Assembly (NCBI RefSeq): GCF_030169785.1
Contig: NZ_CP125854.1
Location: forward strand, 2,480,001 to 2,544,000
Reading direction: 5' to 3'
From: Bdellovibrio sp. 22V
GTDB lineage: Bacteria; Bdellovibrionota; Bdellovibrionia; Bdellovibrionales; Bdellovibrionaceae
DNA length: 64,000 nt
The notes below the pieces were generated by a model that was not told where the DNA came from, searched no databases, and was given only the letters and a program-made list of their open reading frames with translations. Shown piece after piece: positions 35,074 through 36,841 of the stretch (positions are counted from its first letter, which is position 1; each line of letters opens with the position of its first letter). The translations under genes were made by a program, and so were the position numbers.

Positions 35074-35096
35074 TCCTGCAAGGCGTGCTGAAGCCG

Positions 35097-35125
35097 AAAA
35101 GGAAGGACTTTGCGTCCTTCCTTTT
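35097..35125. terminator. Perfect 12-bp terminator hairpin
   Basis: AAAAGGAAGGAC and GTCCTTCCTTTT form a perfect 12-bp stem around TTTGC. It follows the small secreted protein gene (minus strand) by 18 bases. Confidence 0.8.
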
Positions 35126-35143
35126 CATTTTTTGGGGATTCAG

Positions 35144-35509
35144 TTATGGAAGATTCGGATATTGGCAGAGCAAAGAGTCTGACTGTCCTACACTCAACAC
35201 AGCATTTTCTTTTTTCGCGGTTAACACGGTCATCTTGTCGAAGTAGATAGAGAAGATGTCACCTTCCCACGTCGTCGTGCCTTCAACAAACTGCCCGCGG
35301 TCTTGAGCAACCACTGTGTTTCCGAGGAGAACAATAACATCGATCGCGCCCGTGTATTCATCTGCAATACCTACAACCTCTAAAGCGGAGTCAACATAGG
35401 GAAGACTTCCACAGACAAAAACATCGTGACTTTCTTGTGAATCGCGCGCCATAGCCGCCGTTGAGATTAAAGTCAGAGCTGCCATCATTACCACCAAGTT
35501 CATTTTCAT
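35144..35509 (-). CDS. Small secreted two-cysteine protein
   Basis: Start at 35509 (MKMNLVVMMAALTLISTAAMA, signal peptide; GAAAGGAAC upstream). The 121-residue product is beta-rich with one Cys near the mature N-terminus (DVFVCGSLP) and one near the end (SLLCQYP). Its plan, F-x-C near the start, the G..(I/V).V.(V/L).G segment, a GxF strand and a late Cys, resembles the protein at 35621, so the two are probably distant paralogues. A three-half-site palindrome lies 80-100 bases upstream. The function is unknown. Confidence 0.72.
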   Translation of the reverse strand: MKMNLVVMMAALTLISTAAMARDSQESHDVFVCGSLPYVDSALEVVGIADEYTGAIDVIVLLGNTVVAQDRGQFVEGTTTWEGDIFSIYFDKMTVLTAKKENAVLSVGQSDSLLCQYPNLP

Positions 35510-35580
35510 AAAGAGTTCCTTTCGTAGGGTTTGAAGTTGCGGCACTTCTACGATGAACTCTTATTGAACTCCAGTTTTTT

Positions 35581-35610
35581 TGACACAATATGTGTCAGCT
35601 TCTGACACAG
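35581..35610 (-). promoter_or_regulatory. Operator with three TGTGTCA/TGACACA half-sites
   Basis: TGACACA-ATA-TGTGTCA-GCTTC-TGACACAG. The right-hand pair (35591-35609) has the same half-sites and the same 5-base spacing as the palindrome before the TIGR02147 regulator (36817-36841). It lies upstream of the 35144-35509 gene and in the 3' flank of the 35621-35965 gene. Confidence 0.65.
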
Positions 35611-35620
35611 GAAGTTTCTA

Positions 35621-35965
35621 CTAGTACGTGCAGTTTACAGAGAGCGAGTAGTACATTCTGCCCCAGCTATAGATCATTCCTCCAGGCGTGCCCAACGTGA
35701 GTTTAACATCGGGGCCCGAGTAGGTGAGATTGTCCGCGTAAAACACACCTTCTTCCTCGAGAATAATCTGCGCGCCTCTATACACCGTGACTGACATTTT
35801 TTCGCCGCCAAGTGATGAGCCTTTCACACTGATTGGATGACCGCCTTCGGCACTTTCACAATAAAAGGAAACACTGTCCCCGCCGCCCTCTTTAAATCTT
35901 GCCATCGCCGAGTCCGCGACAAGAAGGCTAAGACCTATGATGGAAAGAATGATGTGCATTTTCAT
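35621..35965 (-). CDS. Small secreted two-cysteine protein, coupled to the TIGR02147 gene
   Basis: The likely start is ATG 35965 (MKMHIILSIIGLSLLVADSAMA, signal peptide) with GAAAGGAA upstream; an ATG at 35980 overlaps the regulator stop (ATGA) and could add five residues. The 114-residue protein is beta-rich with cysteines in VSFYCESAE and SVNCTY. It resembles the neighbour at 35144 in layout and cysteine positions. It is expressed with the regulator, which suggests it is part of the same response. The function is unknown. Confidence 0.75.
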   Translation of the reverse strand: MKMHIILSIIGLSLLVADSAMARFKEGGGDSVSFYCESAEGGHPISVKGSSLGGEKMSVTVYRGAQIILEEEGVFYADNLTYSGPDVKLTLGTPGGMIYSWGRMYYSLSVNCTY

Positions 35966-35976
35966 AACTATTCCTT

Positions 35977-36765
35977 TCATTTTTTTGTGGTTAAAGGAAA
36001 AAAACTAATCTGCATTTGATAAACTTCTTTGCCGTTTTTAGGACGACGGAATTCCCGTGCAAAAGCGCGGCGGAATTCCGTAATTCTTTTTACGGCCTCT
36101 GTCATGTCGGCGGCGTCAAAACAGAAGGTCGCTGACGTATGATTACGCTGAGTTAACTCGACCTCTTGCACGGTTCTTTGGGAAAGCTCAAGAAGCTGAA
36201 TTTGATATTTTCTTGCTGCATCCGAAGTTTGCGCCGGAGTTAAATGCGTCAACTCTCCATTTTCCGAAGTTTCCACCCAGTGATGGCTTTTCTCTTTGCG
36301 GAGTAAGTTCATGCGAAACAAACGTTCGATCGCAATATTTGCTTCCGACTTAGTGATTCCCAAGCGGCGACTAATCCATCCCGACTCCGGTTTAAAATCA
36401 AACACGTGAGTCAGTTCTAATATCGCGTAATGATACCAATCCGAAATCAGGGCAAACTCGTCCAAACTTTGCTTTTGAGGTTCATGCGAGTTGAATGACT
36501 CTTCTTGTTCAGAGACTGGTAGACGACGAATTTGCTCAACCGAAAGCCCCAAGGCAGACCCCAGGCGCAGCTTCATTTTCTCTGTGATAGGACGCTTGCC
36601 ATTAATCATTTGGGACAACGCCGACGGCTCTACACGCAAGGAGCGCGCAAAGGCCCTTAAAGAGTAGCTGGGGTTAAAGCGGCATCTTTCCACAAGCTCA
36701 GCCTGCAGAAGACTTCTGAAGTTGGTCGCGGTGACCTTTTTACGTTTTTCCCGGGAAGGTTCCAT
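35977..36765 (-). CDS. TIGR02147-family transcriptional regulator
   Basis: A 262-residue protein with an N-terminal HTH (about 28-75: YSLRAFARSLRVEPSALSQMINGKRPIT) and a C-terminal domain typical of TIGR02147 (SDWYHYAILELTHVF, ISRRLGITKSEANIAIERLFRMNLL, then FCFDAADMTEAVKRITEFRRAFARE). This family is abundant in Bdellovibrio and Fibrobacter. It lies just downstream of a 10-bp-arm palindrome and overlaps a small secreted protein gene. A near-identical palindrome precedes a second small secreted protein gene, so the simplest reading is a regulator acting on its own promoter and on that gene. Confidence 0.85.
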   Translation of the reverse strand: MEPSREKRKKVTATNFRSLLQAELVERCRFNPSYSLRAFARSLRVEPSALSQMINGKRPITEKMKLRLGSALGLSVEQIRRLPVSEQEESFNSHEPQKQSLDEFALISDWYHYAILELTHVFDFKPESGWISRRLGITKSEANIAIERLFRMNLLRKEKSHHWVETSENGELTHLTPAQTSDAARKYQIQLLELSQRTVQEVELTQRNHTSATFCFDAADMTEAVKRITEFRRAFAREFRRPKNGKEVYQMQISFFPLTTKK

Positions 36766-36816
36766 GCAGCGAACGATCTACACCCCTCGGTTTCGACCGT
36801 CCACTATTTTGAAACA

Positions 36817-36841
36817 AACTGTGTCAACTTCTGACACAGTT
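36817..36841 (-). promoter_or_regulatory. Palindromic operator upstream of the TIGR02147 regulator
   Basis: AACTGTGTCA-ACTTC-TGACACAGTT: perfect 10-bp arms, 5-base spacer. On the minus strand it contains TTGACA, a good -35 box, 52-75 bases before the regulator start. The half-sites recur at 35581-35610. Confidence 0.7.

Follow-up and report, generated by a model that had tools for sequence, protein, structure and literature searches.

A TIGR02147 regulator of Bdellovibrio sp. 22V with predicted triple half-site operators before its own gene and a small secreted protein gene

In PlcR-PapR and related RNPP systems, an XRE-type regulator has the gene for a secreted product immediately downstream, and a palindromic box stands before its own gene and before exoprotein genes. 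Small XRE/HigA-type factors as a rule repress their own genes. The locus described here, from the predatory bacterium Bdellovibrio sp. 22V, resembles PlcR-PapR in regulator type, downstream secreted product and palindromic box, but its partners are folded secreted proteins and its regulator has no Pfam TPR match and, where RNPP proteins have their TPR domain, is modelled with a winged HTH and two long helices; assignment to the RNPP (PlcR-like) family was rejected. Like the HigA-type XRE antitoxins and autoregulators (6chv, 7csw, 6lb3), the regulator combines an N-terminal HTH fold with putatively autoregulatory palindromes, but it has no HigB-type toxin neighbour, carries an added winged HTH, has secreted partners, and its array lies outside the core promoter. 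It was rejected as a HigA antitoxin, scoring 31.8 bits against a cut-off of 47.7, with small secreted proteins lacking a Pfam match as its neighbours. It is instead a member of the TIGR02147 (Fsuc_second)/DUF4423 proteins, for which no paper on TIGR02147 and no description of an operator, target or partner was found in the literature searched outside subscription papers; the only mention found is of the DUF4423 protein Bd3700, which is raised while the predator grows in prey (PMC12546842). Studies of the IclR and LacI families (PMC8222616, PMC4052901) likewise read transcription factor residues and operator letters from comparative genomics, but the present case differs in concerning a Bdellovibrionota family with no described operator and with close to one operator in each genome for each paralogue. 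The component parts, namely an XRE-type factor, a palindromic operator and a coupled target, are of known kinds; what appears to be new is the operator rule across the family, together with the residue code and the pairing with exoproteins.

The window, the whole stretch of 64,000 nucleotides that was analysed, carries the regulator gene, small gene 1 and small gene 2 in that order on the minus strand (Table 1). The original prediction had assigned the regulator to TIGR02147, and two profile models, both above their curated cut-offs, agree: TIGR02147 (E 1.5e-29, 103.3 bits, cut-off 50) and DUF4423 (PF14394; E 2.4e-35, 122.2 bits, cut-off 30). In the AlphaFold model (pLDDT 89) the N-terminal HTH (helices within residues 16-80) precedes the DUF4423 region; it resembles HigA folds in Foldseek (probability 1.00), and the Pfam HTH_31 score is slightly below cut-off. 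Translational coupling of small gene 1 to the regulator, as had been proposed, is plausible because its ATG overlaps the regulator stop (ATGA, 35980-35977), and the same -4 overlap recurs in four of six orthologous loci. Just past the end of small gene 2, a scan marked a strong 13-bp hairpin followed by ATTTTTT (35096-35126, plus strand), which is probably a terminator.

Table 1 Features of the regulator locus, in positions of the window; operators and promoter elements are predicted
Feature	Position	Strand	Description
TIGR02147/DUF4423 regulator	35977..36765	-	262 aa; profile matches, AlphaFold, Foldseek
Regulator domains			HigA-like XRE HTH 16-80, recognition helix 47-54, winged HTH 96-165, C-terminal helices; AlphaFold
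Small secreted protein 1	35621..35980	-	119 aa; signal peptide, then FKEGGGD motif; 2 Cys
Small secreted protein 2	35144..35509	-	121 aa, counted from MKMNLV start
Operator R, towards regulator	36810..36838	-	TGTGTCA-GAAGT-TGACACA-GTT-TGTTTCA; orthologous arrays in six other genomes
Predicted -35, regulator promoter	36798..36803	-	TGGACG; 15 bp from dyad centre 36818; family profile
Predicted -10, regulator promoter	36775..36780	-	TAGATC; 17-bp spacer; ATG 10 bases further
Operator S, towards small protein 2	35581..35609	-	TGTGTCA-GAAGC-TGACACA-TAT-TGTGTCA; 21/21 of array consensus
Predicted -35, small gene 2 promoter	35568..35573	-	TGGAGT; 16 bp from dyad centre 35589
Predicted -10, small gene 2 promoter	35545..35550	-	TAGAAG; 17-bp spacer

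Both palindromes described in the original prediction are present exactly where it had placed them: TGTGTCAACTTCTGACACA (36820-36838), inside AACTGTGTCA-N5-TGACACAGTT (36817-36841), before the regulator gene, and TGTGTCAGCTTCTGACACA (35591-35609) before small gene 2. The third half-site reported before small gene 2 exists (35581-35587), and the regulator promoter has one as well, a degenerate gene-proximal TGTTTCA (36810-36816) that had been missed. Given third half-sites at both promoters, the predicted operator unit is the triple half-site array TGTGTCA-N5-TGACACA-N3-TGTGTCA, which reads towards its gene and holds two dyads 11 bp apart. The N5 palindrome held up as an exact palindrome but not as the unit, the core being the N3 dyad TGACACA-N3-TGTGTCA with an extra upstream half-site, and the AAC/GTT at the outside of the AACTGTGTCA palindrome shows no conservation and corresponds to the N3 spacer. 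A pattern search of the 3,601,631-base genome, the motif scan that had been suggested, found exactly two exact matches to TGTGTCA-N5-TGACACA, both at this locus, and none to a backwards control pattern; the exact palindrome was absent from the 65 other genomes of the family searched.

Orthology was called by similarity, the orthologous regulators being 64-70% identical to that of the window, and the orthologous loci were aligned (L047-L053; one is from Bdellovibrio bacteriovorus kdesi, L046/L053). In every one of the seven genomes that have an orthologue, the array precedes both the regulator and small gene 2 (14 promoters), in agreement with the proposal of a compact regulon in which the regulator and the secreted proteins share operators. 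All genes of the locus lie on one strand, head-to-tail, in the window and in G005, G008 and G023; the regulator and small gene 2 are divergent, head-to-head, in G006, G009 and G010, where two back-to-back arrays each face their own gene. The orientation of the array relative to its gene is unchanged in either gene order, and there are only two good array sites per genome. The palindrome had been expected to be conserved before related TIGR02147 genes, and this survived: the array is kept in orthologues, and many further TIGR02147 genes have a generalised form of it, in other letters, upstream. The array before the G023 regulator (L052) has lost its distal half-site, and the G008 regulator operator (L050 2315-2343) has changed coherently to TGTGGCA/TGCCACA half-sites while its small gene 2 operator stays TGACACA; the former is perhaps an operator in transition. 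The consensus scan also marks 35609-35591, 12 bases past the stop of small gene 1, as terminator-like, and the palindromes might on that account be RNA hairpins, for example the terminator of the regulator operon. However, a real U-run is absent, the divergent loci keep the array in a place that does not follow small gene 1, G005 has an intact N3 dyad but a disrupted N5 stem, and the spacing is tied to the downstream promoter; the probability of this reading is negligible.

A larger hidden regulon was considered and rejected, the extra sites not being common between genomes except in the close pair G006 and G009, where they lie downstream of lon; single sites with one mismatch occur at G000 1746104 and G010 1428130. 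The sites of the close pair (L101, G006 C1:75312; L102, G009 C1:3947513) are a near-perfect array (TGTGTCTCGTGATGACACACTTT) between a Lon-like protease gene and a small ORF.

About 20-30 TIGR02147 paralogues are present in this genome, and close relatives of this regulator occur in 205 of the 291 genomes of the phylum. Upstream of other TIGR02147 genes in the family stand dyads of like form, centred on CActtTG (TTGCACCActtTGGTGCAA, TCGGAACActtTGTTCCGA, TGACCTCActtTGAGGTCA), with letters that differ by paralogue. Dyads were scored as TGnnnCA-N3-TGnnnCA with at least 5 of 6 arm pairs, and a hold-out set of 79 TIGR02147 genes from other families of the phylum was fetched after the rule had been seen. 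Such a dyad was found in 31 of the 79 hold-out upstreams, against 0.55 in shuffles and 0 in coding controls, and in 20 of 97 upstreams of the family set, against 0.3 in shuffles and 2 in coding controls; the inner dinucleotide of perfect-core dyads was CA in 51, the next commonest core occurring 8 times. About 60-80% of TIGR02147 upstreams are without a dyad of exactly this form; some operators have another geometry (e.g. TGTTTCA-N5-TGAAACA-N1-TGTTTCA), and some further dyads may lie out of range. Third half-sites are common in the family too, with subfamily-specific spacing (N7/N3, N5/N1). The N5 palindrome alone was rejected as a general motif, a geometry grid over non-orthologous genes placing N7/N3 and N5/N1 first and N5/N3 15th; the common element across the family is the CAnnnTG-centred dyad. 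One paralogue operator, TGCACCA-N3-TGGTGCA, occurs once per genome in six of six genomes, always before its own regulator.

The identity of the binder was addressed by covariation. An unguided scan of 70 regulator-operator pairs placed the four strongest residue-base associations at residues 46, 47, 48 and 52, within the recognition helix, a position that agrees with the predicted structure. His47 accompanies C at base 6 in 16 of 17 operators, against 0 of 67 without His47 (84 operators, Fisher 2.7e-16); this pairing was first noticed in the family set and then held in later sets (2/2 versus 0/12 in the rows added later), with some His47 operators having C in one arm only. Base 6 is A with Pro47 (71/76 half-sites), G or T with Ser47 (Ser47-G6, p 1e-6) and T with Gln47; base 4 is C with Asp46 (34/36 half-sites) and A with Glu46; base 5 is C with Lys52 (30/36) and A with Glu52 (25/26). 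Within one clade, of helix DxSS(L/V)SQ, residue 47 and one operator base differ together (DPSS with TGCCACA, DHSS with TGCCCCA, DSSS with TGCCGCA). Part of the covariation reflects shared ancestry: the tree has eight changes of His47, and its well-supported branches give four independent pairs, of which all or nearly all go the expected way and none the opposite way, a number too small for a sign test (p 0.125). The window regulator, with Glu46, Pro47 and Gln52 (TTGACACA), fits the code. That recognition-helix residues predict half-site letters argues that the TIGR02147 protein itself very probably binds the arrays. Binding by another transcription factor is extremely unlikely, given that the half-site letters track the recognition helix of the adjacent TIGR02147 protein across the 84 operators and that the sites occur only in these loci.

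Promoters were called by consensus. When 72 promoters were anchored on the dyad centre, TTG appeared at +16 to +18 and TA at +39 to +40, with a 17-bp spacer; the -35 lay at +15 to +17 in 55 of the 72, and within 14-21 bp of the dyad centre in 82% compared with 23% in shuffles. Nearly all of the 14 orthologous promoters have TGG (or TTGG) at +15/+16, with TA 17-18 bp on. The -35 is degenerate, keeping only its first letters (TTG/TGG), and regulator promoters have poor -10 boxes. For the window, starts of transcription are predicted near 36767 (regulator) and 35538 (small gene 2). The TTGC/TGG box was also considered as a sigma-54 element, a reading rejected on the grounds that its spacing, with a TA box 17 bp further, is that of a -35/-10 pair. 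The dyad is centred near -51 and the upstream dyad near -62, both outside the core promoter and in fixed phase, so that an operator stands at fixed spacing upstream of a weak -35, as at activator-dependent promoters; the evidence is positional. The position near -51, the fixed distance and the degenerate -35 favour activation, and it is fairly likely that the regulator activates both promoters. The same protein at the same operators could instead repress its own operon and small gene 2 until a ligand or signal relieves it, as would be usual for small XRE/HigA-type factors, with HigA antitoxins as the nearest folds, and cooperative arrays would fit this too. This is possible but rather improbable: the array overlaps neither the -35 nor the -10, and its near-constant distance to a TTG-only -35 has an activator-dependent look.

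Small proteins 1 and 2 had been taken for distant paralogues with matching cysteines. A direct comparison (E 0.001) and one through relatives (E 5e-16, G023 small protein 1 against G006 small protein 2) both bear this out, and two cysteines are invariant across the small proteins. A profile of them has members in exactly the seven orthologue genomes of 66, always in this locus; it missed small protein 1 of G006 and G009, which is present but diverged, with a KEGGGD motif. Neither small protein has a Pfam match in a Pfam search, and both putatively function in the periplasm or outside the cell. An eight-stranded beta barrel (pLDDT 79.6) is predicted for small protein 2, with Cys33 and Cys115 on its first and last strands. 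Like the PliC/MliC periplasmic lysozyme inhibitors, it would be a secreted beta barrel, small and of comparable size, but the Pfam MliC profile gave no match in it, and the likeness to PliC 4mir_A, one of the nearest solved folds (Z 7.6, rmsd 3.4, 77 aligned residues), being below Z 8 and tied with unrelated barrels, is a lead only; membership of PliC/MliC was not accepted, Z 7.6 lying within the range of common barrels. Further small secreted proteins were seen near the orthologous loci: a conserved six-cysteine protein (RYCCIRRGGTYCDMGYYDRFGQPCSCFLGNNEYEGHVCR) about 130-520 bases upstream of the regulator in L048 and L050, and a third protein of about 112 aa with several cysteines (MKHLIALSALLI...) past small gene 2 (L049 562-900, G006; L051 2890-3228, G009), with a similar protein at L046 2441-2776.

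Pairing with a secreted partner extends across the phylum. A signal-peptide-like gene, called by a home-made hydropathy rule and not by SignalP, came next (-20 to +60 bases) to 71 of the 79 hold-out TIGR02147 genes, within 10 bases in 61, against 8 of 57 of the window's long ORFs in general. Soon after the signal peptide, 55 of the 71 hold-out exoproteins and 0 of 42 controls carry a glycine motif (EGHGGD, GNGGD, EGGGG, QDRGGGD; EGxGG-like), by a pattern drawn up after viewing the family set, and small protein 1 (KEGGGD) belongs to this group. No general Pfam or NCBIfam family was found in the 11 full-length partners examined. In one partner (L066 2238-3500), a signal peptide and a GQDRGNGGDQC motif are followed by ankyrin repeats. 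A family of lipoproteins (CASxHPG..., about 221 aa) is paired with TIGR02147 in L069, L070, L073, L075, L111, L116, L132, L133, L144 and L145, and most of these regulators have TGTTTCA-N5-TGAAACA-N1-TGTTTCA-like operators. An XRE-type regulator, an overlapping secreted-protein gene, an autoregulatory operator and a motif so often just past the signal peptide would together suit a PlcR-PapR-like circuit, in which the regulator would sense a peptide cut from the coupled exoprotein at its conserved mature N-terminus (KEGGGD/EGHGG). Such a circuit is nonetheless very unlikely, as the TPR domain of RNPP proteins is replaced in the model, the motif is common while DNA specificity varies, and many exoproteins are 200-470 aa long. 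A speculative and doubtful extension would make TIGR02147 regulators and EGxGG exoproteins a single class of self-contained signalling cassettes throughout the phylum, with tens of them in a predatory genome and a separate half-site code insulating each regulator. The conserved mature N-terminus of the secreted partners would then be a common tag, serving in sorting or as a signal, with feedback on the regulator or on predation.

The best explanation of the whole, held with good confidence, is a self-dedicated XRE-type transcription factor that acts through triple arrays as an activator and is insulated from its paralogues. Its N-terminal HTH would bind the array just upstream of the -35 of two promoters, that of small gene 2 and its own, the latter also driving the translationally coupled small secreted protein 1. 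It would most likely activate, with the dyads at about -51 and -62 assisting RNA polymerase where the -35 is weak. Most of its roughly 20-30 paralogues would likewise be paired with an exoprotein gene, and cross-talk between them would be prevented by residues 46, 47, 48 and 52 reading paralogue-specific half-site letters. At the level of sequence comparison, the conservation and geometry of the arrays, their restriction to these promoters, the covariation and the gene pairing are demonstrated.

Few regulators of Bdellovibrionota are as multiplied as the TIGR02147 proteins, and no target was found described for any of them in the literature searched; the arrays are the first predicted DNA targets for this large uncharacterised family. 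With the operator rule and the residue-to-base code, targets would become readable from sequence, and it would become directly testable whether single residues insulate the paralogues from one another. The pairing indicates that predatory bacteria have many secreted proteins, as yet uncharacterised, that share an N-terminal motif.
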